From Liolophura sinensis (lineage: Eukaryota; Mollusca; Polyplacophora; Chitonida; Chitonidae): a stretch of 64,000 nucleotides of DNA. Positions 7,597 through 50,500 of this stretch are shown here, in pieces. The notes under the pieces are model-generated. The model did not search any database and was not told the origin of the DNA. It was given only the letters and a program-made list of their open reading frames with translations. The position numbers and the translations under genes were made by a program. Location: NCBI RefSeq assembly GCF_032854445.1, contig NC_088300.1, forward strand, positions 1,114,001-1,178,000. Direction: 5' to 3'. Numbering within the stretch: position 1 is the first letter of the stretch; each line of letters opens with the position of its first letter.

Positions 7597-8153
7597 ACAA
7601 TGTTCTCTTGCATTACAGCTGCCCGAGGTTACTGTTAATCGTCACGCATAACCACACGTAGTCGAGACTACATTACTTGCCTGCGACAGAGACGTAGGCC
7701 TGTAGGGGAAATGCATAATAATGGAGGGAGACATGTGCCTGATAATACCCAGACATTACCGTACAACAGAACAATCTCTACAGCATACTTATAACTTAAA
7801 TGTCAACAAAGGGTACCTAGTTTTGGTTTTTGGTCGTCTAGAAGCGGTGATTTGTATGAATTAATATTTTTTTATAGAAAAAATGCCCCACCCTTCCTCT
7901 TTATTTCCTGCTTGAATATATTCTGTAGGTGTGACCTAAACGACAAATTCCCTGATGCCCAGAAGTTCCGGATACAAATGAAGATGGAGGAGTGATCCCG
8001 GAGCTAATCAATGCTACACAACTATAACGGCAACTACATTTGTAGAACTCTGTAACCTTTTTCTCTAGCCTCATGGGGTATTTGCCATTCCCATTGGTAA
8101 CATGGAATTTCACGTGATAATCTACAACTGCCGGACACTGTCGTGTATACGCT
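7597..8153. other. 3' flank of the VWA gene
   Basis: This should hold the 3' UTR. I see no clear AATAAA; weak candidates are the ATTAATATTTTTTTATAG region near 7860 and other AT-rich spots. No further gene is visible. Confidence 0.4.
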
Positions 8154-8510
8154 CTTCTCGGCAGGAACAAAAGAGGCTGTATACATGTAAGGGATGTTGT
8201 AACTCTTCTCGGCAGGAACAAAAGAGGCTGTATACATGTAAGGGATGTTGTAACTCTTCTCGGCAGGAACAAAAGAGGCTGTATACATGTAAGGGATGTT
8301 GTAACTCTTCTCGGCAGGAACAAAAGAGGCTGTATACATGTAAGGGATGTTGTAACTCTTCTCGGCAGGAACAAAAGAGGCTGTATACATGTAAGGGATG
8401 TTGTAACTCTTCTCGGCAGGAACAAAAGAGGCTGTATACATGTAAGGGATGTTGTAACTCTTCTCGGCAGGAACAAAAGAGGCTGTATACATGTAAGGGA
8501 TGTTGTAACG
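8154..8510. repeat. Homogeneous 51-bp tandem repeat, 7 copies
   Basis: Seven essentially identical copies of a 51-bp unit that includes CTCTTCTCGGCAGGAACAA and GGCTGTATACATGTAAGGG. The lack of divergence suggests recent expansion or conversion. The 51-bp period (17 codons) opens ORFs on both strands, which I reject as genes. Confidence 0.95.
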
Positions 8511-14877: not shown

Positions 14878-15845
14878 ATAGCCATGAAGTATGAGGCAAA
14901 GTGGGATAGCCAGTGTGGGGCGAAGTGGGATAGCCAATGTGGTGTGAAGTGGGATAGCCAATGTGGGGCGAAGTGGGATAGCCAATGTGCGGCGAAGTGG
15001 GAAAGCTAATGTGGGTTGAAGTGGGATAGCCAATGTGGGGCGAAGTGGTATATCCAATATGGGTTAAAGTGAAATATCCAATGTGGTGTGAAGTGGGATA
15101 GCCAATGTGGGTTAAAGTGGGATAGCCAATGTGGGGCGAAGTGGGATAGCCAATGTGGGGCGAAGTGGGATAGCCAATGTGGGGAAAAGTGGAATAGCTA
15201 ATGTGGGTCTAAGTGGGATAGCCAATGTGGGTTGAAGTGGGATAGCCAATGTGGGGCGAAGTGGAATAGCCAATGTGGGGCGAAGTGGGATAGCCAATGT
15301 GGGGAAAAGTGGGATAGCTAAGGTGGGGCCAAGTGGGATAGCTAATGTGATGCGAAGTGGGATAGCCAATGTGGGACGAAGTGGAATAGCCAATGTGGGG
15401 CGAAGTGGGATAGCCAATGTGGGGAAAAGTGGGATAGCTAATGTGGTGCGAAGTGGGATAGCAAATATGGGGCGAATAGGGATAGCCAATGTGGGGTGAA
15501 GTGGGATCGCCAGTGTGAGGCGATATGGGATAGCCAATGGAAGCGAAGTGGGATAGCCAGTGTGGTGCGAAGTGGAATAGCCAATGTGGGGTAAAGTGGG
15601 ATGGCCAGTGTGGGTTGAAATGGGATAGCCAATGTAGGGCGAAGTGGGATAGCCAATGTGGCTATCCCACTTCTATAGGCAATGTGAGGTGAAGTAGGAC
15701 AGCCAGTGTGATGAGAAGTGAGATAGGCAATGTGGGGTGAAGTAGGATAGCCAGTGTGTTGCGAAGTAGGATAGCCAATGTGGGGTGAAGTGGGATAGGC
15801 AATGTGAGGCGAAGTGGGATAGCCATAGAGAGGTGGTGAGGTAGC
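14878..15845. repeat. 24-bp array, GGGGCGAA subtype
   Basis: About 40 copies of GTGGGATAGCCAATGTGG plus GGCGAA (24 bp), with variants GGTGTGAA, GGTTGAA and GGGAAAA. It passes into the next array at about 15846 through mixed units, so both are subfamilies of one satellite. Confidence 0.9.
15641..15673. repeat. Perfect 15-bp inverted repeat with 3-nt loop inside the 24-bp array
   Basis: GAAGTGGGATAGCCA (15641-15655) is followed by ATG and then its exact reverse complement TGGCTATCCCACTTC (15659-15673). It is the only place I see where the array unit appears in inverted orientation. Confidence 0.85.
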
Positions 15846-17511
15846 CAATGTGTTGCGAAGTGGGATAACCAGTGTGAGAAGAAGTGGGATTGCCAGTGTG
15901 AGGAGAAGTGGGATAGCCAGTGTGAGGAGAAGTGGGAGAGCCAGTGTGAGAAGAAGTGGGATAGCCAGTGTGAGAAGAAGTGGGATAGCCAATGTGAGAA
16001 GAAGTGGGATAGCCAGTGTGAGGAGAAGTGGGATAGCCAGTGTGAGGAGAAGTGGGATAGCCTGTGTGAGGAGATGTGGGATAGCCATTGTGAGGAGAAG
16101 TGGGATAGCCAGTGTGAGAAGTGGGATAGCCAGTGTGAGGAGATGTGGGATAGCCAGTGTGAGGAGAAGTGGGATAGCCAGTGTGAGGAGAAGTGGGATA
16201 GCCAGTGTGAGAAGTGGGATAGCCAGTGTGAGGAGAAGTGGGATAGCCAGTGTGAGGAGAAGTGGGATAGCCAGTGTGAGGAGAAGTGGGGTAGCCTGTG
16301 TGAGGAGATGTGGGATAGCCAGTGTGAGGAGAAGTGGGATAGCCAGTGTGAGGAGATGTGGGATAGCCAGTGTGAGGAGAAGTGGGATAGCCAGTGTGAA
16401 GACATGTGGGATAGCCAATGTGAGGAGATGTGGGATAGCCAGTGTGAGAAGAAGTGGGATAGCCAGTGTAAGAAGAAGTGGGATAGCCAGTGTGAGAAGA
16501 AGTGGGATAGCCAGTGTGAGGAGAAGTGGGATAGCCAGTGTGAGGAGAAGTGGGATAGCCTGTGTGAGGAGAAGTGGGATAGCCTGTGTGAGGAGATGTG
16601 GGATAGCCATTGTGAGGAGATGTGGGATAGCCAGTGTGAGAAGTGGGATAGCCAGTGTGAGGAGAAGTGGGATAGCCAGTGTGAGGAGAAGTGGGATAGC
16701 CAGTTTGAGAAGTGGGATAGCCAGTGTGAGGAGAAGTGGGATAGCCAGTGTGAGGAGATGTGGGATAGCCAGTGTGAGGAGAAGTGGGATAGCCAGTGTG
16801 AGGAGATGTGGGATAGCCAGTGTGAGCAGAAGTGGGATAGCCAGTGTGAGGAGATGTGGGATAGCCAGTGTGAGGACAAGTGGGATAGCCAGTGTGAGGA
16901 GATGTGGGATAGCCAGTGTGAGGAGAAGTGGGATAGCCAGTGTGAAGACATGTGGGATAGCCAGTGTGAGGACATGTGGGATAGCCAGTGTGAGGAGAAG
17001 TGGCATAGCCAGTGTGAGGAGATGTGGGATAGCCAGTGTGAGGAGAAGTGGGATAGCCAGTGTGAGGAGATGTGGGATAGCCAGTGTGAGGAGATGTGGG
17101 ATAGCCAGTGTGAGGAGAAGTGGGATAGCCAGTGTGAGGACATGTGGGATAGCCAGTGTGAGGAGATGTGGGATAGCCAGTGTGAGGAGAAGTGGGATAG
17201 CCAGTGTGAGGAGATGTGGGATAGCCAGTGTGAGGAGAAGTGGGATAGCCAGTGTGAGGAGATGTGGGATAGCCAGTGTGAGGAGATGTGGGATAGCCAG
17301 TGTGAGGAGATGTGGGATAGCCAGTGTGAGGAGAAGTGGGATAGCCAGTGTGAAGACATGTGGGATAGCCAGTGTGAGGACATGTGGGATAGCCAGTGTG
17401 AGGAGATGTGGGATAGCCGGTGTGAGAAGTGGGATAGCCAATGTGAGGAGAAGTGGGATAGCCAGTGTGAAGACATGTGGGATAGCCAGCGTGAGGAGAA
17501 GTGGGGCAGGA
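15846..17511. repeat. 24-bp array, GAGGAGAA subtype
   Basis: About 69 copies of GTGGGATAGCCAGTGTGA plus GGAGAA (24 bp), with interspersed GAGATG and GACATG variants and a few units shortened by 3 bp or more (for example 16108-16128). The 8-codon period keeps several frames open on both strands (up to 741 codons), which I judge to be artefacts. Confidence 0.95.
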
Positions 17512-20813: not shown

Positions 20814-23800
20814 ATGCCTGTATCCAGCGTGTGGCTTATTGTAATTTGTCAGCTGATTACTCTGGCTATAGGTTATGATAGACACAAAGATCACATAGCC
20901 TCTGTACAGGAGGCCGAGGAAGCGGCATCGAGACGGTGAGAGCAACAACAACATAACACATCAAACATACCACATGCCAGTCCTTCGTGTTTTTGAAGAT
21001 CAGCACATAATACTTGTATATCTGATGGCAAACTTGAGCTTTCCGATGAAAGGCACATTGTAGTGGAACTAAAGGAGGTTGGATAAGCGGAGAGATTTCG
21101 TGACAGTGGTATGAACGATTTCCGTATGTGGGAAGGTCTGCAAGCAACCTGTGGATGCATGGTCGTGCGTTTCCTCCGGGCTCTGCCCGGTTTCCACCCA
21201 CCATACTGCTGGCTGCCGTCGTATAAGTGAAACATTCTTGAGTAAGGCGTAAAACACCAATCAAATAAATAAATAAATGAACAATTTACCACGGACTGCA
21301 GCACCTTTCTGGTTCCAGTAATGACTGGCAGTAGAATTCACTTAGCTAACAGTCATGGCAGGGAAGCATTTGAGTAATTAAGGGTGCAACTGCGACTGGA
21401 TATTTAGTATGCAATTGCTCTGACATTAGGTTTCGCAAAATTTTTGTTTGGTCAGGGATTGGTTTGGGGTCATTGAGTCTTTGGCTGGACAAACTTTTAC
21501 CAAATCCAACGTCAAAGCAATCGCCGACTACCTTTTTTTAAGGTAATCATACCATGATGACGTACCATATATTGTATACTTTATTTAAGTTAACTGTTTA
21601 GGTCTATATTAAGTAATTTCAAAGAAGAAGTATAACACTTCATGTATCTGGAAGTTACACCCAAGCCATGCTATATACTCTTATTAGTACCTAAGCTTTA
21701 TGGGCTGTTTGTGGTCCATCCTTTAAAATGGCCTTTACCTGGGATTCAGCCAGAGCTAATGGCCAGGAAAATGTACATGAATATAATTATTATTGTTGAG
21801 TAGGTGTCATTATGATCTGCACCAGTTATGGAGCCATGAAGTGGGTCATAGTCCCTTTGCAGCTACGCCTCTCATCACAGATGTTGATGCAGATGGACGT
21901 GTGGATATTGTTGCTGCTTCCTTCACAGAGGCACTGACTGTCGTTGATGGAGAGACAGGGAAACAGCTGAGAGATGGATATTGGCCGGTTCAGTTCACAG
22001 ACAGATGTTTCCATTCCAGTCCTTTACAGGTACAGCTTTACCAAAACAGAATTACCTTACTGCAGAGGCTGAAAGACTTTGTATACTGAACATTATGGTG
22101 TAGGCCTAGCCCTGTTTGTCCTTGTGTCAGCTTACTGTGACAGGGTGAGGTGTCATGCATTGTCTTCAGCATGGCATTCCAGTGAGGCAGCACTGGAGAT
22201 TCATCTGAACAAACAAGCCTGCGACCAGGATAACCACAATGGGTTGTTTTTGTAACATGAAGGACTTTAAGAAATTGTATAATTTGGGCAAAATATCACA
22301 GCTATCTGTGACTATTTATGGTTGCCAATTGAAAGAAAATGGTGAAACTCAACTCAAAGGATGGGATTTGGTGAGGAGGGGACTTTCATTATGTGCGCAG
22401 AATAAGTTCACACACAATGACTAAAAAGCTGTTATCAGTGGCATGGGTGTGCATCTATCTTGAGGTTTGAGGGAGCTGTCATTATCTGTTCTGGGGAGCA
22501 TTCATTATTTATTTGATTGGTTGTTGTTCAAGGCTGTACTCAAGCATTCATTGCATGTATGTCAGAGATATATAGGTATATATTCACTGTTTTCCACAGT
22601 TTTACCTTTATCTTTATAGTTTGACATTGATGGTGATGGAATGCTGGACATACTGCTCACCACCTCAGCTGGAGAGTTGTTGTTTTATGCCAAAAATGGA
22701 CAATTGTTACAAGATTACACCTTTACTGTAAGTTTTATTCTAGGTTTAAAACGTTTGGCCTATGTGATATCATTTCTTTGATAATACTTCCCTATGAAGT
22801 GAAGATCCACCTCAAAACTTATTCTAGCATGGGATATATTGTGTTAAGCTAAACAGGAAATCTTACCACTGACAAACTGTGAAGCATGTAAAGGAGGGTT
22901 GAGCTCATCTTTATTTATGCTTATGCGTATGCTGTAGATTTTGAGTTATCAAATGTATGTCACCGTTGCATTGAGTCAGAACTAGTTGTAATCAGTTCCT
23001 GGAGCCAGTTGGCCTCTCTCAGCGACTGATCACTCGCTACTAGGAACATGACGTGATATTATCATTTCCTGATAGTAGATCATGTCCTGCTTTTAGGGAT
23101 CAGCTCAGCCTAGTCCTGATTAGCTCCTCATGCACTCAAGTGACATAAGTGCTCTGGCAATGCAGTTACAACAGCATCATTTAGCCAATCGAATAGTGTG
23201 TAGACTTGGGGCAGTGCCCTTATGAGTGTGATAACTTGTTCTGTTAGTTTTTCCCAGTTGTTGATGAGTGCTGTCGTGTGTGACATAAGCCCCCAGTTGC
23301 ACAGAGTTGTCCTTAGTTCTGTCCTATCACACTGTGACATAAGCTATGAGTATAGTTAACAGTCTATTGATTCTAGTGTTTTGTTTTGCACAGATTCCTG
23401 CTGTACATGTGCGTCGTGATTGGTTCACTCAGGTAGTGACCATATCTCACACGTCTGTTCATGACTTTATCCTGGATGATCCATCCCAAACACAGGTACT
23501 GTACACGTACCTGTATGTATACCAACACTGGTACAGGTAATAACAGTTCACTGAGGTAGTGACCATATCTCACACAACTGTTCATGACTTTATCCTGGAT
23601 GATCCACCTCAAACACAGGTACTGTACACGTACCTGTATGTATACCAACACTGGTACAGGTAATAACAGTTCACTCAGGTAGTGACCATATCTCACACAT
23701 CTGTTCATGACTTTATCCTGGATGATCCACCTCAAACACAGGTACTGTACACCTACCTGTATGTATTCCAACACTGGTACAGGTAATAACAGTTCACTGA

Positions 23801-26800
23801 GGTAGTGACCATATCACACATCTGTTCATGACTTTATCTTGGATGATCTAACCCCAAACACAGGTACTGTACACGTACCTGTATGTATACCAACACTGGT
23901 ACAGGTAATAACAGTTCACTCAGGTAGTGACCATATCTCACACATCTGTTCATGACTTTATCCTGGATGATCCACCTCAAACACAGGTACTGTACACCTA
24001 CCTGTATGTATACCAACACTGGTACAGGTAATAACAGTTCACTCAGGTAGTGACAATATCTCACACATCTGTTCATGACTTTATCCTGGATGATCCACCT
24101 CAAACACAGGTACTGTACACCTACCTGTATGTATACCAACACTGTTACAGGTAATAACAGTTCACTGAGGTAGTGGCCTTATCTCACATGTCTGTTCATG
24201 GATGATCTAACCCCAAACACAGGTACTGTATACTTGTCTTGCACAGGTAAAAAAAGACACAGTAGTCAAGATATGATGGGTTTGAATGTATGTTACCCGA
24301 ATCAAACTTATACTCACTGTTCCATTACATGTATGCTTAGGATGGTGCCGAGCCATGTACAGTGTTAGGCTGTCATTTTATTTTATCATGAACAGGACCC
24401 CGTGTACATCAGTGTTGACCCTCACGTGTTGGCCACGCCTGCCCTGGCAGATGTCAACCATGATGGGATTGTGGAAGAGCTGGTCGTACCTGTGTCCTAC
24501 TACTATGATAGCCACGATTACAGGTATGAGGTTTACATCATCACAGACCTCATCCATGGATAACAAACACAACTCTACCAGCGTTTATATCTTCCTGCAC
24601 ATTTGTTTGTGTGTACTGCTACATGTACCTGTAAGCTTTTCTTTGTTAACTTTACACTGTGTATCTTACATCATGTAGTGTGTACAGAAAAAAGGATTTC
24701 TGTGTAGTAGTATTTTGTAAAGTCATTTACTTATGTCCTTGTATTATGTTGTTTGCAATAAGCTTGCATATGCATGTAATTGTCAGTTCTTTGTGTAATA
24801 CATTTGAAAGAAGTCATTAACATGTGCATTTACTGCTTTAATAATAAGTCTTAATGTCATGTTTAAGACTTCAAAAAAAAAATTATGGTCTCAAATTGAG
24901 CCCAGGTCATCACAAAGATGACATTGTGTTTTGCTAAGATGCATACTTTAAATCTCAAAGATTAATGCTGTACAGTATTTTATCCACTTTAGTGTCGGCT
25001 TATGCAAAATATTATGTAATACATTTCACATCTTTAAGTCATATGTAGGTCATACTTATTTATTTGATTGTTGTTTTACACGTATTATTAAAATCATATT
25101 GGATGACTCCACCAATAAAACACACTTGAACCCAGCTCTTGGTGGTTTAGTGGTGATTGATTCTATAGAGGTCGGGGTTTTTGTCAGGTACCTGTACACA
25201 TACCACACTCTAGGTGTACTTCTCTTCCTCCAGCAATATGTATGATGATTTCTGAGATCTCTGCATTGTTTGTAAACCGTCTTGATTGCTTATTTTATGT
25301 GGTGTCACAGGGACTATTTTACCTGTAATGTACCTGTTCTTGGCCTTACACTTGACAGGCTATTGGAGAAATTACACACCTTATTCAATGTCAGTGAGGA
25401 AGATGTGGACAAATATCTGGTCAGTGCTGTGGTCAATGTTAATCTGACCAGTTTGCAGGTGTTACATACTGTTCATCTGGACCTAACTCAGGTGAGTCAT
25501 TGATCAGTTATGTGGTTAATGTGACCAGTCTGCAGGTGTTACGTACTGTGAATATGGACCTCACTCAGGGGAATCATTGGTCAGTGCTGTAGTAAATGTT
25601 AATCTGAACCGTCAGCAGGTGTTACACACTTTTCATCTGGATCTCACTGAGGTGAGTCATTGATCAGTGCTGTAGTCATGGGTAATCTGACCAGTCTACA
25701 GGTGTTACATACTGTTTATCTTGACCTAACTCAGGGGAATCATTGATCAGTGCTGTGGTAAGTGTTAATGTGACCAGTCTGCAGGTGTTACACACTGTTC
25801 ATCTGAACCTCACTGAGATGAGTCATTGATCAGTGCTGTAGTCATGGGTAATCTGACCAGTCTGCAGGTGTTACACACTGTTCATCTGAACCTCACTCAG
25901 GTGAGTCATTGATCAGTGCTGTAGTCATGGGTAATCTGACCACTCTGCAGGTGTTACATACTGTTCATCTTGACCTAACTCAGGGGAATCATTGGTCAGT
26001 GCTGTGGTAAGTGTTAATGTGACCAGTCTGCAGGTGTTACACACTGTTCATCTGAACCTCACTGAGGTGAGTCATTGATCAGTGCTGTAGTCATGGGTAA
26101 TCTGACCAGTCTGCAGGTGTTACAAACTGTTCATCTGGACCTAACTCAGGGGAATCATTGGTCAGTGCTGTGGTAAGTGTTAATGTGACCAGTCTGCAGA
26201 TGTTACACACTGTTCATCTGAACCTCACTCAGGTGAGTCATTGGTCAGTGCCGTAGTAAATGTTAATCTGAACCATCAGCAGGTGTTACACACTGTTCAT
26301 CTGGACCTCACTGAGGTGAGTCATTGATCAGTGCTGTGGTAAGTGTTAATCTGAACAGTCAGCAGGTGTTACATACTGTTAATCAAGACATCACTCAGGT
26401 GAGTCATTGATCAGTTATGTGGTCAGTGTTAATGTGACCAGTCTGCAGGTGTTACACACTGTTCATCTGGACCTTACTGAGGTGAGTCATTGATCAGTGC
26501 TGTAGTCATGGGTAATCTGACCACTCTGCAGGTGTTACATACTGTTAATCTAGACGTCACTCTGTTGAATCATTGATCAGTTATGTGGTCAGTGTTAATC
26601 TGACCAGTCTGCAGGTGTTACATACTGTTCATCTGGACCTAACTCAGGGGAATCATTGGTCAGTGCTGTAGTCATGGGTAATCTGACCAGTCTGCAGGTG
26701 TTACATACTGTTCATCTGGACCTAACTCAGGGGAATCATTGGTCAGTGCTGTGGTAAGTGTTAATGTGACCAGTTTGCAGGTGTTACACACTGTTCATCT

Positions 26801-29800
26801 GAACTTCACTCAGGTGAGTCATTGATCAGTGCTGTAGTCATGGGTAATCTGACCAGTCTGCAGGTGTTACATACTGTTCATCTGGACCTAACTCAGGGGA
26901 ATCATTGGTCAGTGCTGTGGTAAGTGTTAATGTGACCAGTCTGCAGGTGTTACACACTGTTCATCTGAACCTCACTGAGGTGAGTCATTGATCAGTGCTG
27001 TAGTCATGGGTAATCTGACCAGTCTGCAGGTGTTACATACTGTTCATCTTGACCTAACTCAGGGGAATCATTGGTCAGTGCTGTGGTAAGTGTTAATGTG
27101 ACCAGTCTGCAGGTGTTACACACTGTTCATCTGAACCTCACTGAGGTGAGTCATTGATCAGTGCTGTAGTCATGGGTAATCTGACCAGTCTGCAGGTGTT
27201 ACATACTGTTCATCTGGACCTCACTCAAGTGAGTCATTGGTAAGTGCTGTGGTCAGTGTTAATCTGACCACTCTGCAGGTGGTACATACTGTTCATCTGG
27301 ACCCCAGTCAGTTGAGTCATTGGTGAGTGCTGTGGTCAGTGTTAATCTGACCAGTGTGCAGGTGTTACATACTGTTCATCTGGACCTCAGTCAGGTGAGT
27401 CATTGATCAGTGCTGTGGTAAGTGTTAATCTGAACAGTCAGCAGGTGTTACATAATGTGAATCTGGACCTCACTCAGGTGAGTCATTGATCAGTTATGTG
27501 GTCATTGTTAATCTGACCAGTCAGCAGGTGTTACATACTGTTCATCTGGACCTCACTCAAGTGAGTCATTGGTCAGTGCTGTGGTCAGTGTTAATCTGAC
27601 CACTCTGCAGGTGGTACATACTGTTCATCTGGGCCTCAGTCAGGTGAGTCATTGGTGAGTGCTGTGGTAAGTGTTAATCTGACTAGTCTGCAGGTGGTAA
27701 TACTGTTCATCTGGACCTCAGTCAGGTGAGTCATTGATCAGTGCTGGGGTCAGTGTTAATCTGACCAGTCTGCAGGTGTTACATACTGTTCGTCTGGACC
27801 TCAGTCAGGTGAGTCATTGATCAGTGCTGTGGTCAGTGTTAATCTGACCAGTCTGCAGGTGGTACATACTGTTCATCTGGACCTCAGTCAGGTGAGTCAT
27901 TGGTGAGTGCTGTGGTCAGTGTTAATCTGACCAGTCTGCAGGTGGTACATACTGTTCATCTGGACCTCAGTCGGGTGAGTCATTGGTCAGTGCTGTAGTA
28001 AATGTTAATCTGACCAGTCAGCAGGTGTTACACAATGTTCATCTGGATCTCACTGAGGTGAGTCATTGATCAGTTATGTGGTTAATCTGACCTGTCCGCA
28101 GGTATTACATACTGTTCATCTGGACCTCACTCAGGTGAGTCATTGATCAGTGCTGTAGTCATGGGTAATCTGACCAGTCCTCAGGTGGTACATACTGTTC
28201 ATCTGGACCTCAGTCAGGTGAGTCATTGATCAGTGCTGTGGTCAGTGTTAATCTGACCAGTCTGCAGATGTTACATACTGTTCATCTGGACCTCAGTCAG
28301 GTGAGTCATTGGTGAGTGCTGTGGTCAGTGTTAATCTGACCAGTCTGCAGGTGGTACATACTGTTCATCTGGACCTCAGTCGGGTGAGTCATTGGTCAGT
28401 GCTGTAGTAAATGTTAATCTGACCAGTCAGCAGGTGTTACACAATGTTCATCTGGATCTCACTGAGGTGAGTCATTGATCAGTTATGTGGTTAATCTGAC
28501 CTGTCCGCAGGTATTACATACTGTTCATCTGGACCTCACTCAGGTGAGTCATTGATCAGTGCTGTAGTCATGGGTAATCTGACCAGTCCTCAGGTGGTAC
28601 ATACTGTTCATCTGGACCTCAGTCAGGTGAGTCATTGATCAGTGCTGTGGTCAGTGTTAATCTGACCAGTCTGCAGGTGGTACATACTGTTCATCTGGAC
28701 CTCAGTCAGGTGAGTCATTGGTAAGTGCTGTGGTCAGTGTTAATCAGACCAGTCTGCAGGTGGTACATACTGTTCATCTGGACCTCAGTCGGGTGAGTCA
28801 TTGGTCAGTGCTGTGGTCAGTGGTAACCTCGTACAGTATTTCTCATACCTTTTTTTTCGTATTTTTTTTTTGATTTTCCAGAAAAGTTTTGCAGAATGGA
28901 TTTACGAAGCTTTGTGAAAGTGGTCTTATGAACTGAATCGGTTACATTATTTGTCAGTCTCAGTTTATTCGGTTTACAGATTGGGCACATACTTAATGGG
29001 TATAATTGCACAAAAGTGTGCTGAGGTAATTTCTAACTCTTCTGAAAAGAAGAAATGAATTTTTTCTGCATATATTTTTTTGTGTGAGGATTGAATTTTT
29101 ATAATGATTATGTTAATATTATTTTAATAATTATAATATACATGTATTTGACTTTGTTATTGGAGAAGATTTACCTTATTTACCAAAAACAAGTAAATAA
29201 ATATGTACCTCCTCCAGGCATCGGCAGTTTTCCCTGGTTACCTGCTGGCCACACCCACAGTGATTGACCTGGACAGTGAAGGAGGGCCATTAGAGATTGT
29301 GGTTGGGACAGGGGCAGGTAACCTCCACGTGGTGGAGTCCTCAGGGGCTCACAGGAAGGGCTTTCCAGTCTCCACAAACAGTCTTACGTCTCAGGTATGG
29401 GATGGGTTGTGCAGCCTCTATAGACAGTGTGTTTTGAGTTAAAACTGTGGGGCTTGATTATGTTATTTTTCAACAATATATAACATGTACCGTGAATCTT
29501 GAACAATTTGTATTGTTTATTGTTATTTTTGGAGGTGTCTGTGTAAATCTTGTTTTACTAAAACTATCTTTTCATGAATATAAATATATAAGGTGGTGTG
29601 AATTACATATGTAAAGTCTGTGCACTATGGACATGCACCTGTATTGTGTAGTCCTGTGTCCCCTGTAGGTGGTTGTTGCAGAGCTGCTGGGAGATGGCAG
29701 GTTACAGCTTGTTACCGTTGATCCCAGCGGTAATGTGGCTTGTCACAACAGAGAAGGGCAGCTGGTCTGGGAGGCGGAGGTGTCCGGTCCAGTCATCTCC

Positions 29801-32800
29801 GGGATGAGGCTGTCTGACATAAATGGGGATGGGAAAGTAGACATTGTCATTACAACACAGGAAGGGTAAGATTTATTGTGGACAGAGTTGTGGTGGACAG
29901 GGGCAGAGTTTTGGTGGATGTGGACAGAGTTATGATGGATAGGGACAGAGCTGTTGTGGACATGGACAGAGTTATGATGGACATGGACAGAGTTATGATG
30001 GACATGGACAGAGTTATAATGCACAGCTCTGTCCCAGTGGTGGACGGGGACAGATATGGTGGACAAACAGAGTTGTGGTGGGCAGGGAGACAGTTATGAT
30101 TGACAGGGACAGAGTTATGATTGACAGGGACAGAGTTATGATGAACAAGGACAGAGTTGTGGTGGGCATGGAGAGAGCTGTGATGGACAGGGACAGAGTT
30201 ATGGTGGACAAAGACAGAGTTATGGTGGACAGAGACAGAGTTATGGTGGATAGGGACAGAGTTATGATGGACAAGGACACAGTTATGATGGACAGGGACA
30301 CAGTTATGGTGGACAGGGACACAGTTATGGTGGACAGTGACAGAGTTATAGGGACAGGGACAGAGTTATGATGGACAGGGACAGAGTTATGATGGACAAG
30401 GACTCAGCTATGGTGGACAGGGACACAGTTATGGTGGACAGGGACAGAGTTATGGTGAACAGGGACAGAGTTATGATGGACAAAGACAGAGTTATTGTGG
30501 ACAGAGACAGAGTTATGATGGACAGGGACAGAGTTATGATGGACAGGGACAGAGTTATGATGGACAAGGACACAGTTATGGTGGACTGAGACAGAGTTAT
30601 GGTGGACATGGACAGAGTTATGGTGGATAGGGACAGAGTTATGATGGACAAAGACAGAGTTATTGTGGACAGAGACAGAGTTATGATGGACAGGGACAGA
30701 GTTATGGTGGACAAGGACACAGTTATGGTGGACAGGGACAGAGTTATGGTGGACAGGGACAGAGTTATGGTAGACAGGGACAGAGTTATGGTGGACATGG
30801 ACACAGTTATGATGGACAGGGACACAGTTATGGTGGACAGGGACAGAGTTATGGTGGACAGGGACAGAGTTATGATGGACAAAGACAGAGTTATGGTGGA
30901 CAGGGACAGAGTTATGGTGGACAGGGACAGAGTTATGATGGACAAAGACAGAGTTATGGTGGACATGGACAGAGTTATGGTGGACAGGGACAGAGTTATG
31001 ATGGACAGGGACACAGTTATGGTTGACAGAGACACAGTTATGATGGACAGGGACAGAGTTATGGTGGACAGGGACACAGTTATGGTGGACAGGGACACAG
31101 TTATGGTGGACAGGGACAGAGTTATGATGGACAGGGACAGAGTTATGGTGGACAGGGACACAGTTATGGTGGACAGGGACAGAGTTATGATGGACAAGGA
31201 CACAGTTATGGTGGACATGGACAGAGTTATGGTGGACAGGGACAGAGTTTTGGTGGACAGGGACAGAGTTATGATGGACAAAGACAGAGTTATGGTGGAC
31301 AGAGACAGAGTTATGGTGGACAGGGACAGAGTTATGGTGGACAGGGACAGAGTTATGATGGACAAGGACACAGTTATGGCGGACAGGGACACAGTTATGG
31401 TGGACAGGGACAGAGTTATGATGGACAAAGACAGAGTTATGGTGGACAGGGACAGAGTTGTGGTGGATAGGGACCGAGTTATGATGGACAGGGACAGAGT
31501 TATGATGGACAAGGACACAGTTATGGTGGACAGGGACAGAGTTATGATGGACAAGGACACAGTTATGATGGACAAGGACACAGTTATGGTGGACAGGGAC
31601 AGAGTTATGATGGACAAGGACACAGTTATGGTGGACAGGGACAGAGTTATGATGGAGAGGGATAGCGTCTAAGAGGACAGATAGAGGTATAGTTGACAAG
31701 AACAGTTTTAGTGGATATGAACATGTTATGACTTGCTGTAGTTGATCTGACCATCCTGGTATTGCTATATGTATGGCAGTACTACGTAAATGTGAAGCAT
31801 GCTTGTCATTACTTTTACTTTTCATGAACTGGTTACAATACTACCTGCATACCTCTGTACATATGGAGTTTCATGAACTGGTTACAATACTACCTGCATA
31901 CCTCTGTACATATGGAGTTTCATGAACTGGTTACAATACTACCTGCATACCTCTATACATATGGAGTTTCATGAACTGGTTACAATACTACCTGCATACC
32001 TCTGTACATATGGAGTTTCATGAACTGGTTACAATACTACCTGCAAACCTCTGTACATATGGAGTTTCATGAACTGGTTACAATACTACCTGCATACCTC
32101 TCTACATATGGAGTTTCATGGACTGGTTACAATACATACCTGCATACCTCTGTACATATGGAGTTTCATGAACTGGTTACAATACTACCTGCATACCTCT
32201 GTACATATGGAGTTTCATGAACTGGTTACAATACTACCTGCATACCATGTACATATGGAGTTTCACGAACTGGTTACAATACTACCTGCATACCTCTGTA
32301 CATATGGAGTTTCATGAACTGGTTACAATACTACCTGCATACCTCTGTACATATGGAGTTTCATGAACTGGTTACAATACTACCTGCATACCTCTGTACA
32401 TATGGAGTTTCATGAACTGGTTACAATACTACCTGCATACCTATGTATGTATGGAGTTTCATGAACTGGTTACAATACTACCTGCATACCTCTGTACATA
32501 TGGAGTTTCATGAACTGGTTACAATACTACCTGCATACCTCTGTACATATGGAGTTTCACGAACTGGTTACAATACTACCTGCATACCTCTGTACATATG
32601 GAGTTTCATGAACTGGTTACAATACTACCTGCATACCTCTGTACATATGGAGTTTCATGAACTGGTTACAATACTACCTGCATACCATGTACATATGGAG
32701 TTTCATGAACTGGTTACAATACTACCTGCATACCTCTGTACATATGGAGTTTCATGAACTGGTTGCAATACTACCTGCATACCATGTACATATGGAGTTT

Positions 32801-35800
32801 CATGAACTGGTTACAATACTGGTTGCAATACTACCTGCATACCATGTACGTATGGAGTGTCATGAACTGGTTACAATACTACCTGCATACCTCTGTACAT
32901 ATGGAGTTTCATGAACTGGTTACAATACTACCTGCATACCTCTGTACATATGGAGTTTCATGAACTGGTTACAATACTACCTGCATACCATGTACATATG
33001 GAGTTTCATGAACTGGTTACAATACTACCTGCATACCTCTGTACATATGGAGTTTCATGAACTGGTTACAATACTACCTGCATACCATGTACATATGGAG
33101 TTTCATGAACTGGTTGCAATACTACCTGCATACCATGTACATATGGAGTTTCATGAACTGGTTACAATACTACCTGCATACCATGTACATATAGAGTTTC
33201 ATGGACTGGTTACAATACTACCTGCATACCTCTGTACATATGGAGTTTCATGAACTGGTTACAATACTACCTGCATACCTCTGTACATATGGAGTTTCAT
33301 GAACTGGTTACAATACTACCTGCATACCTCTGTACATATGGAGTTTCATGAACTGGTTACAATACTACCTGCATACCATGTACATATGGAGTTTCATGAA
33401 CTGGTTACAATACTACCTGCATACCTCTGTACATATGGAGTTTCATGAACTGGTTGCAATACTACCTGCATACCATGTACATATGGAGTTTCATGAACTG
33501 GTTACAATACTACCTGCATACCATGTACATATGGAGTTTCATGAACTGGTTGCAATACTACCTGCATACCATGTACATATGGAGTTTCATGGACTGGTTA
33601 CAATACTACCTGCATACCATGTACATATGGAGTTTCATGAACTGGTTACAATACTACCTGCATACCATGTACATATGGAGTTTCATGAACTGGTTGCAAT
33701 ACTACTTGCATACCTCTGTACATATGGAGTTTCATGAACTGGTTACAATACTACCTGTATACCTCTGTACATATGGAGTTTCATGAACTGGTTACATATG
33801 CAGATATTGCACTTGTGACACATGGATACACACATATGGAGTTTGTGTACAGTGTAGCACAGGGCTCTACCTAGTACACTGTGTTAAATATGCTATGTAG
33901 CTGGTTTTGGAAGTGTAACAATTTTTTAAAACTGAAGTAACAAATTTTCACTAAACATGACAAATATGTACATGTGATAATTTTGTACTTTGTTTCAGAT
34001 CTATCCATGTGCTTTCTGGTGATTCAGGGAGCGAACTCTCTGGTTGGCCTGTAACCCTGGGGTTTCCTGTCACAGCCAATGTCCTCATCAGCAGACTGTC
34101 CAAACTCACTCCTCACTCTGTAGATATGGTGAGCATATAGTAACACTCTGTCCTCTCTATGTTCTCTGTTACTCTGGGGTTTACTGTCACAGCCAATGTT
34201 CTCATCAACAGACTGTCCAAACTCACTTCTCACTGTGTAGATATGGTGAGCAGATAGTAACACTCTGTCCTCTCTATGTTCTCTGTTACTCTGGGGTTTA
34301 CTGTCAGAGCCAATGTTCTCATCAACAGACTGTCCAAACTCACTTCTCACTGTGTAGATATGGTGAGCAGATAGTAACACTCTGTCCTCTCTATGTTCTC
34401 TGTTACTCTGGGGTTTCCTGTCACAGCCAATGCCCTCATCAACAGACTGTCCAAACTCACTCCTCACTCTGTAGATATGGTGAGCATATATTAACACTCT
34501 GTCCTCTCTATGTTCTCTGTTACTCTGGAATTTACTATCACAGCCAATGTTCTCATCAACAGACTATCCAAACTCACTTCTCACTGTGTAGATATGGTGA
34601 GCAGACAGTGGCGCACTGTCCTCTCTGTGTTCTCTGTTAGTCTGGGGTTTACTGTCACAGCCAATGTCCTCATTAACAGACTGTCCAAACTCACTTCTCA
34701 CTGTGTAGATATGGTGAGCAGATAGTAACACTCTTTCCTCTCTATGTTCTCTGTTACTCTGGGGTTTCCTGTCACAGCCAATGCCCTCATCAACAGACTG
34801 TCCAAACTCACTCCTCACTGTGTAGATATGGTGAGCATATAGTAACACTCTGTCCTCTCTATGTTCTCTGTTACTCTGGGGTTTACTGTCAGAGCCAATA
34901 TTCTCATCAACAGACTGTCCAAACTCACTTCTCACTGTGTAGATATGGTGAGCAGATAGTAACACTCTGTCCTCTATATTTTCTCTGTTACTCTGGGGTT
35001 TACTGTCAGAGCTAATGTCCTCATCAACAGACTGTCCAAACTCACTTCTCACTGTGTAGATATGGTGAGCAGATAGTAACACTCTGTCCTCTCTATGTTC
35101 TCTGTTACTCTGGGGTTTACTGTCACAGCCAATGTTCTCATCAACAGACCGTCCAAACTCACTTCTCACTATGTAGATATGGTGAGCAGATAGTAACACT
35201 CTGTCCTCTCTGTGTTCTCTGTTACTCAGGAGTTTACTGTCACAGCTAATGTCCTCATCAACAGACTGTCCAAACTCACTCCTCACTGTGTAGATATGGT
35301 GAGCAGATAGTAACACTCTGTCCTCTATATTTTCTCTGTTACTCTGGGGTTTACTGTCACAGCTAATGTCCTCATCAACAGACTGTCCAAACTCAGTCCA
35401 TGCTCTGTAGATATGGTGAGCAGAGAGAAACACACTGACCTCTCTGTGTTCTCTGTTACTCTGGGGTTTACTGTTACAGCCAATGTCCTCATCAGCAGAC
35501 TGTCCAAACTCACTTCTCACTGTGTAGATACAGTGAGCATATAGTAACACTCTGTCCTCTATATGTTCTCTGTTACTCTGGGGTTTACTGTCACAGCTAA
35601 TGTCCTCATCAACAGACTGTCCAAACTCACTTCTCACTGTGTAGATATGGTGAGCAGATAGTAACACTCTGTCCTCTCTATGTTCTCTGTTACTCTGGGG
35701 TTTCCTGTCACAGCCAATGCCCTCATCAACAGACTGTCCAAACTCACTCCTCACTGTGTAGATATGGTGAGCATATAGTAACACTCTGTCCTCTCTATGT

Positions 35801-38800
35801 TCTCTGTTACTCTGGGGTTTACTGTCAGAGCCAATATTCTCATCAACAGACTGTCCAAACTCACTTCTCACTGTGTAGATATGGTGAGCAGATAGTAACA
35901 CTCTGTCCTCTATATTTTCTCTGTTACTCTGGGGTTTACTGTCACAGCTAATGTCCTCATCAACAGACTGTCCAAACTCACTTCTCACTGTGTAGATATG
36001 GTGAGCAGATAGTAACACTCTGTCCTCTCTATGTTCTCTGTTACTCTGGGGTTTACTGTCACAGCCAATGTTCTCATCAACAGACCGTCCAAACTCACTT
36101 CTCACTATGTAGATATGGTGAGCAGATAGTAACACTCTGTCCTCTCTGTGTTCTCTGTTACTCTGGGGTTTCCTGTCACAGCCAATGCCCTCATCAACAG
36201 ACTGTCCAAACTCACTCCTCACTCTGTAGATATGGTGAGCAGATAGTAACACTCTGTCCTCTCTATGTTCTCTGTTAGTCTGGGGTTTCCTGTCACAGCC
36301 AATGTCCTCATTAACAGACTGTCCAAACTCAGTCCATGCTCTGTAGATATGGTGAGCAGAGAGAAACACACTGACCTCTCTGTGTTCTCTGTTACTCTGG
36401 GGTTTACTGTTACAGCCAATGTCCTCATCAGCAGACTGTCCAAACTCACTTCTCACTGTGTAGATACAGTGAGCATATAGTAACACTCTGTCCTCTCTAT
36501 GTTCTCTGTTACTCTGGAGTTTACTGTCACAGCTAATGTCCTCATCAACAGACTGTCCAAACTCACTTCTCACTGTGTAGATATGGTGAGCAGATAGTAA
36601 CACTCTGTCCTCTCTATGTTCTCTGTTACTCTGGGGTTTCCTGTCACAGCCAATGCCCTCATCAACAGACTGTCCAAACTCACTCCTCACTGTGTAGATA
36701 TGGTGAGCATATAGTAACACTCTGTCCTCTCTATGTTCTCTGTTACTCTGGGGTTTACTGTCAGAGCCAATATTCTCATCAACAGACTGTCCAAACTCAC
36801 TTCTCACTGTGTAGATATGGTGAGCAGATAGTAACACTCTGTCCTCTATATTTTCTCTGTTACTCTGGGGTTTACTGTCACAGCTAATGTCCTCATCAAC
36901 AGACTGTCCAAACTCACTTCTCACTGTGTAGATATGGTGAGCAGATAGTAACACTCTGTCCTCTCTATGTTCTCTGTTACTCTGGGGTTTACTGTCACAG
37001 CCAATGTTCTCATCAACAGACCGTCCAAACTCACTTCTCACTATGTAGATATGGTGAGCAGATAGTAACACTCTGTCCTCTCTGTGTTCTCTGTTACTCA
37101 GGAGTTTACTGTCACAGCTAATGTCCTCATCAACAGACTGTCCAAACTCAGTCCATGCTCTGTAGATATGGTGAGCAGATAGTAACACTCTGTCCTCTCT
37201 ATGTTCTCTGTTACTCTGGGGTTTACTGTCACAGCCAATGTTCTCATCAACAGACCGTCCAAACTCACTTCTCACTATGTAGATATGGTGAGCAGATAGT
37301 AACACTCTGTCCTCTCTGTGTTCTCTGTTACTCAGGAGTTTACTGTCACAGCCAATGTCCTCATCAGCAGACTGTCCAAACTCACGTCTCACTGTGTAGA
37401 TACAGTGAGCATATAGTAACACTCTGTCCTCTCTATGTTCTCTGTTACTCTGGGGTTTACTGTCACAGCTAATGTCCTCATCAACAGACTGTCCAAACTC
37501 ACTTCCCACTGTGTAGATATGGTGAGCAGATAGTAACACTCTGTCCTCTCTATGTTCTCTGTTAGTCTGGGGTTTCCTGTCACAGCCAATGTCCTCATTA
37601 ACAGACTGCCCAAACTCAGTCCATGCTCTGTAGATATGGTGAGCAGAGAGAAACACACTGACCTCTCTGTGTTCTCTGTTACTCTGGGGTTTACTGTTAC
37701 AGCCAATGTCCTCATCAGCAGACTGTCCAAACTCACTTCTCACTGTGTAGATACAGTGAGCATATAGTAACACTCTGTCCTCTCTATGTTCTCTGTTACT
37801 CTGGGGTTTACTGTTACAGCTAATGTCCTCATCAACAGACTGTCCAAACTCACTTCTCACTGTGTAGATATGGTGAGCAGATAGTAACACTCTGTCTTCT
37901 CTATGTTCTCTTTTACTCTGAGCTTTACTGTCACAGTTAATGACAGTAGTTATATTGTAACCAGCTTGTAAAGCAGTTTAAAATAATTGATTAGATGTTT
38001 GCTTTATTTCCATTGTTCTTTGAATGCACTGATGAGAGATTACTGTGTTAATTGGTTCCCTTAGGATATGTTTATTAAGTGATAAATTATGATAGAGTGT
38101 AATGGTGTACATGCAGTAGGTACATGTAACGGCTGTAAATGTCTACATATACATCCATGTAGGTACATGTACATGTAAGTTGTAGAAATTTATTGCTGTA
38201 TACTTGTATATCTACACTGTTTATCACTGATATGAGACTTTCAGCATTTTGTCTTCCTGTCTTCTCCCAGATTATCCTCACAGATGATGGCAGCATACAC
38301 CTGGTGTCCAGTGATCATCACTGCAGAAAACATATTCCAATTGGTGAAACCTCATTGGTCCAGGTCTTGTCACATGACCTGATCAGCCAATCAGAAGGCC
38401 TTGAGTTACTGATCGCCACCAAGGATGGGACATTGTTGTGCTTTGGTGTTGGTTATGGGCATGTGCAAAGTCTGAGTGACAATGGTGGGAGTGTGGAGGA
38501 TAAAGTGCACTCTGTCCCTGCTGACCTCAAAACTTACAATGACTTTTATTATGGACAAAACAAGGTAATGTGTTTAAAGGATTAGAATTAGGTAAATGTT
38601 TAGCCTACTTTTACATGTACATGTTAAAAGTGTTAGCTGCTGAATGTAATGTGTAAGTCAGACTTCATGAATGTCGAGAAGAATTTGGAAGACTGTCCGA
38701 TTCAGACATCTTCCAGCTTTAATGCAGTGTAGTGCCAAGCTCTATACATGTATCTCCATCAGGTTATATCTCGTGTGTACAGTATAGTGCCAGGTCATAT

Positions 38801-47464: not shown

Positions 47465-47597
47465 GATTTAATACGCAGGTTTTGGGATTCGAAGTTACGA
47501 CAACAGAGTGACGTCTCTTTGTGAAGTAAAATTGTTACTTCATGTAAAGCTAATGCCAATGTGCCAATTTTAACATGGGTCTTCAAATGTCATAAAA

Positions 47598-50500
47598 ATC
47601 CACAAAACTGGTTCACCATGTATTCAAATCCCACCAACCTGGTACATCATGTACTCAAACCCCACAAACCTGGTTCACCATGTATTCAAATCCCACAAAC
47701 CTGAAACATCATGTCTTCAAATCCCACAACCCGGGAACACCATGTCTTCAAATCCCACAAACCAGGTACACCAGGTATTCAAATCCCACAAATCTGGTAC
47801 ATCATGTATTCAAATCCCACAAACCTGGTTCACCAAGTGTTCAAATCCCATAAACCTGCTACACCATGTATTCAAATCCCACAAACCTGGTTAACCATGT
47901 CTTCAAATCCCACAAACCGGGTACAAAAGGTATTCAAATTCCACAAACCTGGTACATCATGTATTCAAATCCCACAAATCTGGCTCGCCATGTCTTCAAA
48001 TCCAACAAACCTGGTTCATCATGTGTTCAAATCCCACAAATTTAGTTCACCATATATTCAAATCCCACCAACCTGGTTCACCATGTATTCAAATCCCAGA
48101 AACCTGGTTCACCATGTATTCAAATCCCACAAACCTGGTTCACCATGTATTCAAATCCCAGAAACTTGGTACACCATGTGTTAAAATCCCACAAATCTGG
48201 TTTACCATGTATTCAAATCCAACAAACCTGATACACTATGTATTCAAATCCCACAAACCTGGTTCACCATGTTTTCAAATCCCACAAACCTGGTACACCA
48301 TGTATTCAAATTCCACAAATCTGGTTTACCATGTATTCAAATCCCATAAACCTGGTTCACCATGTATTCAAATCCCACAAACCTGGATCTCCATGTATTC
48401 AAATCCCACAAACTTGGTACACCATGTGTTAAAATCCCACAAATCTGGTTCACGATGTATTCAAATCCAACAAACCTGGTACACTATGTATTCAAATCCA
48501 GAAACGTGGTACACTATGCATTCAAATCCCAATAATCTGGTTCACCATGTATTCAAATCCCAGAAACAGGGTACACTACGTATTGAAATCCCCAAAACCT
48601 GGTTCTCCATGTATTCAAGTCCCACAAACATGGTACATCATGTCTTCAAATCCCACAAATCTGGTTCACCATGTATTCATATCCCACAAACATGGTTCAC
48701 CATGTATTCAAATCCCACAAATCTGGTTCACCATGTCTTCAAATCCCACAAATCCAATACACCATGTATTCAAATCCCACAAACCTAGTACATTATGTAT
48801 TCAAATCCCACAAACCTGGTTTACCATGTACTCAAATCCCATCAACCTTGTACATCATGTATTCAAATCCCACCAACCTTGTACATCATGTCTTCAAATT
48901 CCACAATTCTGGTACATTATGTATTGAAATCCCCAAAACCTGGTTCTCCATGTATTCAAATCCCACAAAGCTGATACACCATGTATTCAAATCCACAAAC
49001 CTGGTTCACCATGTATTCAAATCCCACAAACCAGGAACACCATTTTTTCAAATCCCACAAACCTGGTACATCATGTATTCAAATCCCACAAACCTGTTTC
49101 ACCATGTATTCAAATCCCACCAACCTGGTACATCATCTCTTCAAATCCCAAAAACCTGGTACATCATGTATTTAAATACCACAAATATGGTTCACCATGT
49201 CTTCAAATCCCACAAACCTGGTACACCAGGTATTCAAATCCCACAAACCTGGTTTACCATTTTTTCAAATCCCAATAATCTGGTTCACCATGTATTCAAA
49301 TCCCAGAAACAGGGTACACTACGTATTGAAATCCCCAAAACCTGGTTCTCCATGTATTCAAGTCCCACAAACATGGTACATATCATGTATTCAAATCCCA
49401 CAAACTTTGTTTACCTATTATTCAAACCCCACAAACCTGGTTTACCATGTATTCAAATCTCACAAACCTGGTTCACCATGTATTCAAATCCCACAAACCT
49501 GGTTCACAATGTATTCAAATCCCAGAAACCTGGTACATCATCTCTTCAAATCCCACAAACCTGGTACATCATGTCTTCAAATCCCAGAAAACTGGTACAT
49601 CATGTATTGAAATCCCACAAATCTGGTACACCATGTATTGAAATCCCATAAACCTGGTACACCATGTATTGAAATCCCACAAACCTGTTCACCATGTATT
49701 CAAATTCCACAAACCTGGTTCACAATGTATTCAAATCCCACCAACCTGGTACATCATCTCTTCAAATCCCACAAACCTGGTACATCATGTCTTCAAATCC
49801 ACAAACCTGGTACATCATGTATTTAATCCCACAAATCTGGTTCACCATTTCTTCAAATCCCACAAACCTGGTACATCATGTCTTCAAATCCCACAAACCT
49901 GGTTCACCATGTATTCAAATCCCACAAACCAGGTACACTATGTATTCAAATCACACAAACCTGGTTCACCATGTATTCAAATCCCACAAATCTGGTTCAC
50001 TATCTATTCAAATCCCACAAATCTGGTTTACCATGTATTCAAATGCCACAAACCTGGTACATCATGTCTTCAAATCCCACAACGCTGGTTTGCCATGTCT
50101 TCAAATCCCACAAACCTGCTACACCATGTATTGAAATCCCACAAACCTGGTTCACCATGTATTCAAATCCCACAAACCGGGAACACCAGGTATTCAAATC
50201 CCACAAACCTGGTACATCATGTCTTCAAAACCCACAAATCTGGTACATCATGTATTCAAACCCACAAATCTGGTTCACCATGTCTTCAAATCCCACAAAC
50301 CTGGTTCACCATGTCTTCAAATCCCACAAACCTGGTTCACCATGTATTCAAATCCCACAAACCTGGTACACCATGTCTTCAAATCCCACAAACCTGGTTC
50401 ACCATGTATTCAAATCCCACAAACCTGGTTCTCCATGTATTCAAATCCAACAAACCTGGTTCACCATGTCTTCAAATCCAACAAACCTGATTCACCATGT

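Follow-up and report, generated by a model that had tools for sequence, protein, structure and literature searches.

Tandem repeats that lie across an exon-intron boundary are known in lancelets as mirages, and the accessible parts of the two reports describe them in the Adh3, globin, TnC and PGBD5 genes, with regular splicing seemingly undisturbed and some of the repeats varying in length (PMC3087553, PMC3902484). Minisatellites at exon-intron boundaries have also been described in human segmentally duplicated genes, recent paralogs in which units of ~30 base pairs (bp) are repeated about four times on average, and the available portion of that report gives transcript evidence of changed introns in some of them (PMC2812944). 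One of the lancelet papers further cites, in its accessible text, the model of Rogers, in which introns are gained through tandem duplication of AG/GT proto-splice sites (PMC3087553). In abalone, a 27-bp minisatellite whose copy number varies has been described within an intron, with no boundary mentioned in the part of the paper that is available (PMC6905558), and the available parts of PMC3862624 and PMC4039745 hold nothing comparable. Within the open-licence literature, mostly as judged from listings, we found mirages by name only in the lancelet papers, and for molluscs no description of arrays that span such a boundary. Herein we describe such an array in a 64,000-bp window (the whole stretch of DNA analysed) from the chiton Liolophura sinensis: a minisatellite with an 83-bp unit, far beyond chance, that repeats the end of a coding exon together with its splice donor.

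The window is part of contig C6 in a genome of 609,464,459 bases in 632 contigs, the assembly of which was first published as L. japonica and was assigned to L. sinensis by a later correction. The mitochondrial gene order looks molluscan, which counts against an amphioxus host. In its structure the array qualifies as a mirage: its unit spans the exon-intron boundary, the authentic boundary forms its end copy, and its splice signals are partly kept. We consider it likely that this ladder of copies is a mirage-type minisatellite, the by-product of a tolerated tandem amplification in which splice sites were carried along as passengers. This reading is supported by the anatomy and frame of the units, the identity of the gene, the decay of the donors, the lack of codon bias, an in-frame stop, two sister arrays in the same gene, a genome-wide excess of donor motifs with arrays at recognised exon ends in 6 of 15 fetched loci, and the like arrangement in lancelets, for which undisturbed regular splicing was reported.

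The 83-bp array repeats an exon end and its donor

The host gene lies on the + strand, where we located ten exons and joined them by hand into a protein. This protein matches FG-GAP_3 (7.9e-16) and the DEX1 beta-sandwich (4.7e-11), and the locus is thus a predicted DEX1/FG-GAP-like coding gene. The FG-GAP_3 profile used alone missed the gene in the window, and a search of NCBIfam returned sub-threshold matches only. When the protein was compared with the whole genome, all 55 matches fell within a single locus, ten of them strong and corresponding to the exons, the other 45 weak and lying inside three exon-end arrays. The features around the 83-bp array, the period and score of which are from Tandem Repeats Finder (TRF), are as follows.

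25359..25491, + strand: array-bearing coding exon, fifth of the ten located and 'exon 6' of the earlier note on this DNA; acceptor ...cttgacag/GCTATTGG, donor CTCAG/GTGAGT at 25492
25421..28826, + strand: 83-bp minisatellite (TRF period 83, 41.3 copies, score 4850)
25492..25503, + strand: first 12 intron bases, inside the unit; with the donor unused, the last three read as an in-frame TGA
27904..28721, + strand: two near-identical five-unit blocks, a higher-order repeat in the 3' half, from unit comparison
29218..29394, + strand: next coding exon (ASAVFPGYLLATPTVIDLD...), the presumed true acceptor of the array-holding intron

The array cuts into 41 full units and a remnant of 22 nucleotides (nt), in agreement with the ~41 copies claimed by the earlier note. 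The usual unit comprises the last 71 nt of the exon and the first 12 nt of the intron, with the exception of three units of 77 nt and one of 82 nt, and unit 0 (25421-25503) is the authentic exon end and donor, i.e. one end copy of the array. That the unit derives in frame from a genuine coding exon was also part of the earlier note, and both frame and homology support the exon; by our reading the intron after it is in phase 0 and the intron before it in phase 2. The units differ pairwise by a mean of 12% and are organised differently along the array. Units 1-21 form a two-unit higher-order repeat, with a mean identity of 0.906 at lag 2 versus 0.842 at lag 1, while in units 22-40 identity is highest at lag 5 (0.942).

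Two further exons of the same gene carry arrays of this kind, each of which starts within the exon and then crosses its donor.

23394..23495, + strand: upstream exon of the host gene, tail and donor amplified
23423..24230, + strand: second mirage, 123-bp unit, ~6 copies; exon tail, donor ACACAG/GTACTG and intron start
33999..34128, + strand: downstream exon of the host gene, tail and donor amplified
34049..37936, + strand: third mirage, 117-bp unit, 33 copies; exon tail, donor GATATG/GTGAGC and intron start; GT in 33/33 units

Exon-end arrays are therefore found at three of the ten located exons, every one on the donor side. In the window (1-64000), 51% of the sequence consists of tandem repeats, and in the gene region the share rises to 67%; around 30 myosin exon matches from the same genome it is 12% (under a slightly stricter filter than the window figures), which marks the host gene as exceptional.

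Donor positions change at the pace of their neighbours

We counted parsimony changes per column on a tree of the units of each array, taking positions -3 to +6 as the donor. In the 83-bp array, the donor accumulated 15 changes where 11.1 were expected, and in the 123-bp array (6 units) none where 0.9 were expected. When the three arrays were pooled, 17 donor changes stood against 17.0 expected (P 0.55, as 55% of random window sets were as low or lower), and 17 against 16.2 when the exon copies were excluded, in a test that has little power against weak selection. The earlier note had proposed that the copies could be a ladder of microexons, a generator of length variants or a decoy for U1, and had itself named donors that decay at the rate of neighbouring repeat bases as one of two observations that together would speak against this. 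Such neutral-looking decay is what the counts for the 83-bp array and for the pooled arrays display, and the proposal of maintenance is not borne out.

The other positions of the 83-bp unit agree with this picture. Changes fall 19/11/19 on codon positions 1/2/3 in the 33-nt stretch ahead of the donor, and 28/29/28 in the whole exonic part of the unit; by these counts, no coding constraint on the copies was seen. The pseudo-acceptor CAG has no change in its three columns, and 20% of two-column windows are likewise unchanged. From these comparisons, there appears to be no sign of selection on the copies as exons or as donors.

A probable tolerated duplication that grew within an intron

We infer the following order of events. 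An initial tandem duplication would have begun at an exonic point 71 nt short of the exon end and reached 12 nt into the intron. Because the upstream copy retained an intact exon and an intact donor, such a duplication could have been tolerated. Slippage or unequal exchange may then have multiplied the 83-bp unit until there were 41 copies, some of them in the two-unit and five-unit higher-order blocks, and left 40 extra copies within the intron. The first donor, at 25492, would most likely be joined to the exon at 29218, so that the whole array is removed, and the donors and AGs of the copies would be passengers from the exon that are now drifting.

Several observations weigh against this account. 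The 117-bp array (33 units) has 2 donor changes where 5.1 were expected, a count that 16% of windows match or undercut, and its GT is intact in every one of its units. In the genome at large, donor motifs cluster per locus above the control (see below), which plain random placement does not predict. Finally, as the available part of the human study reports, boundary repeats can give rise to alternative splicing and novel introns, so that passive behaviour is not to be assumed (PMC2812944).

Donor junctions as possible birthplaces of arrays

The clustering of donor motifs bears on an alternative in which donor junctions are preferred birthplaces of minisatellites, either through a mutation bias or because they are the sole tolerated site for arrays that overlap exons, such that the donors are owed to origin and not to use. 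This is possible, though we hold it as doubtful. Triplets of the donor motif CAGGTGAGT spaced 45-75 bases apart number 678 in the genome versus 65 for the reversed pattern, a tenfold excess, and tandem triplets of CAGGTAAGT number 437 versus 106 for the reversed control, all these figures being matches, with several per array. Since the single motif CAGGTGAGT already outnumbers its reverse 3.7-fold (10,097 versus 2,731), the tenfold triplet excess overstates the array effect. Counted per locus, at least three CAGGTGAGT chained within 150 bp occur at 7/66 donor loci and 1/94 control loci (Fisher p 0.009, the smallest of six settings, the others giving 0.014 to 0.059), in a sample restricted to a single contig and, for each motif, to its first 100 sites. 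The three affected exons of the host gene, all on the donor side, point the same way. Against this alternative, donor motifs lie in genes and arrays are perhaps simply commoner in introns; moreover, acceptor-type arrays occur too, with a weaker enrichment (triplets of the acceptor motif TTTTNCAG spaced 46-76 bases, 1676 versus 904 for the reversed control).

We fetched 15 of the 18 donor clusters that the listed matches form on contig C1; as these had been chosen for intact donors, they are unusable for the decay test. Eight exon-like peptides were searched (L007, L008, L011, L014, L015, L016, L018 and L019), of which two passed the Pfam cut-off (L008 and L019) and another four had a match in a PDB sequence search, so that a recognised exon precedes the first array donor in 6 of the 15 loci:

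alpha-L-fucosidase exon: PDB sequence search, 7pls, 2.5e-11; the array includes just the last three bases of the exon
Fe-hydrogenase-like exon: PF02906, 1.4e-12
high-affinity choline transporter exon: PDB sequence search, 8j74, 7.4e-14
cullin exon: PDB sequence search, 3rtr, 8.5e-14
MCM6 exon: PDB sequence search, 22vt, 1.7e-14
homeodomain exon: PF00046, 1.3e-23

L015 and L018 are exon-like and gave no match above the cut-off, and in seven loci (L005, L006, L009, L010, L012, L013 and L017) no exon was seen beside the first donor. At the homeodomain locus (L019 1788-2492, G000:C1 near 92961135), the last part of the homeodomain (VKTWYQNRRMKWKKQ) and its donor are repeated ~11 times. Among 10 chosen acceptor-type clusters, two sit immediately ahead of recognised exons:

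exon behind an acceptor-type cluster: DEP domain closest to RGS7, 1.8e-13 and 2.2e-14
exon behind an acceptor-type cluster: glycosyl hydrolase family 3 domain, 3.2e-8

Peptides of three of the 10 clusters were searched, and that of L050 had no Pfam match.

A sample unselected for repeats also counts against preferred birth at donors: among the best 30 of 81 myosin exon matches, an array overlaps 0 or 1 of 60 edges (L037, doubtful), and arrays lie within 40 nt of three further edges (L029 and both sides of L043); some of these matches overlap one another, and their edges are not exact exon edges. Mirages may thus be many in number and yet a small share of all junctions. The broader proposition, that chiton minisatellites are born or survive preferentially at exon-donor junctions genome-wide and so endow many genes with in-frame ladders of candidate exons and donors, seems to us rather unlikely, and would extend to 'hundreds' of genes only if the single listed contig is typical.

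Splice signals retained by the copies

While a tolerated amplification remains our preferred account of the 83-bp array, its copies retain a good part of the splice signals. An AG stands exactly 33 nt ahead of the donor in 40/41 units, the donor is kept as GTGAGT in 30/41 (the others reading GGGAAT in 8 and ATGAGT, TTGAAT and TTGAGT in 1 each), and AG and GT are both intact with the frame open in 29/41. The geometry of AG, 33 nt and GTGAGT pointed out by the earlier note is therefore present, whereas its statement that most units keep a chain beginning with CTGCAG is overstated: CTGCAG is present in 25/41 units, followed by 30 nt and CAGGTGAGT in 7/41, and the literal chain CTGCAG...CACTCAGGTGAGT is found in 2/41. 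The same note saw functional and dead copies alternating, which holds loosely in the 5' half (GGGAAT in units 1, 3, 6, 8, 14, 15, 17 and 19) and fails in the 3' half, where no GGGAAT occurs in units 22-40. As GGGAAT is confined to units 1-19, which share the identity peak at a lag of two, the lost donors spread largely by copying, and the alternation is mostly copied rather than independently evolved.

These signals are the case for a ladder of 33-nt microexons, in which copies are spliced into at least some transcripts and add 11-residue repeats in phase 0/0. The frame would be kept by this route only and not by read-through to downstream donors: translation beyond the first donor ends in ...LTQVSH, with a stop at the fourth codon past it, an in-frame TGA that would truncate longer-exon variants. 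Human boundary repeats, according to the portion of the report available, can alter splicing (PMC2812944), which also favours microexons. We nonetheless find them very improbable. The pyrimidine content before the AG of the copies averages 0.56 (0.47-0.65), lower than at nine real acceptors of the host gene (0.65-0.88) although the ranges touch, and neighbouring microexons would sit just 50 nt apart (83 minus 33). There is, besides, no constraint by codon position, and 5/11 donor-type arrays (with stops and phase unchecked) have a YAG 9-60 nt upstream of the donor at a distance divisible by three, making the 33-nt geometry commonplace.

Sites that act as decoys for U1 or for splicing are a known category, and the donor field could be such a decoy or brake, with copies that rival the first donor or capture U1 in the intron, and thereby reduce or regulate productive splicing; messenger RNA spliced from a downstream donor would then contain a stop. 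The 30 retained GTGAGT donors would fit, as would the enrichment of donor motifs in arrays and the in-frame stop in any product of a downstream donor, as unproductive splicing needs. We judge this reading very improbable, however, as the donor positions are no better preserved than their surroundings, the arrays are located in unrelated genes, and the existence of acceptor-motif arrays is left unexplained by a role for U1. An assembly artefact, to which long tandem arrays are prone, is more improbable still, given the mean divergence between units and high-fidelity (HiFi) reads that average 8,347 bp at 14X and are able to span 3.4 kb, as stated in the accessible part of the assembly paper. This one assembly has been purged of haplotypic duplications, and no match to another copy of the locus was obtained from it.

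Other repeats in the window and the genome

Elsewhere in the window, a 51-bp array at 8152-8509 has seven copies with 100% matches and is probably very young, and a 31-bp array at 47596-53357 extends over nearly 6 kb with ~186 copies. Arrays of 24-bp units (14888-17505) and 21-bp units (29880-31662) carry open frames hundreds of residues long on each strand and are a likely source of false gene models. A 32-bp array at 1-510 reads TGCAGGTAAGT on its minus strand, which is donor-like, and no exon was seen adjoining it. Outside the window, a contig of 108,685 bases (G000:C99) carries seven copies of COX1 at ~15.5-kb spacing, apparently head-to-tail mitochondrial genomes, a series owed either to mis-assembly or to insertion into the nuclear genome; a transfer RNA search of the mitochondrial contig gave no match.

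Comparison with described systems

The name mirage was coined on the basis of a few lancelet genes, and human paralogs are known to carry shorter boundary repeats; a mollusc genome rich in large mirages would show that the phenomenon is no chordate oddity. If true, a preference for donor junctions would amount to a standing supply for the gain of introns and exons in a phylum only distantly related to lancelets and humans, and the possible preference of arrays for arising at donors is the point worth following. The chiton arrays would also offer a system in which long-read transcripts could test intron gain from tandem duplication, and they are a warning to annotators, as such arrays hold long open frames and convincing splice sites.

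The chiton arrays share traits with several described systems. Nearly every unit of the 83-bp array has an internal AG and most have a GT, the raw material of the Rogers model, with the difference that no chiton copy appears to have turned into an exon or a new intron. Like microexons, the candidate segments are 33 nt long, in frame and bounded by AG and GT in 29/41 units; unlike microexons, they have a weak upstream context and, as far as the letters tell, no coding constraint. The many consensus donors beside the true donor recall splicing decoys, but unlike selected decoys they decay at the pace of neighbouring bases.

The closest counterparts are the boundary repeats. The human cases, as described in the available part of the report, are alike in that minisatellites lie on exon-intron boundaries of coding genes; compared with those recent paralogs, the chiton case has an 83-bp unit, 41 copies and a single-locus host gene, and is known from sequence alone (PMC2812944). 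With the lancelet mirages, so far as the accessible parts of the two papers describe them, the chiton arrays share a unit that spans the exon-intron boundary, splice signals kept by many but not all units, and the presence of both donor-side and acceptor-side cases in the genome. They differ in their mollusc host, in the occurrence of three arrays in one gene, and in copy number, 41 and 33 in the chiton against 3 and 6 in the lancelet globin BflGb6 and 2-7 in PGBD5 (PMC3087553, PMC3902484). Repeats over exon-intron boundaries are thus a kind already known, and the chiton case stands apart by its phylum, by its copy number and by having three such arrays in a single gene.

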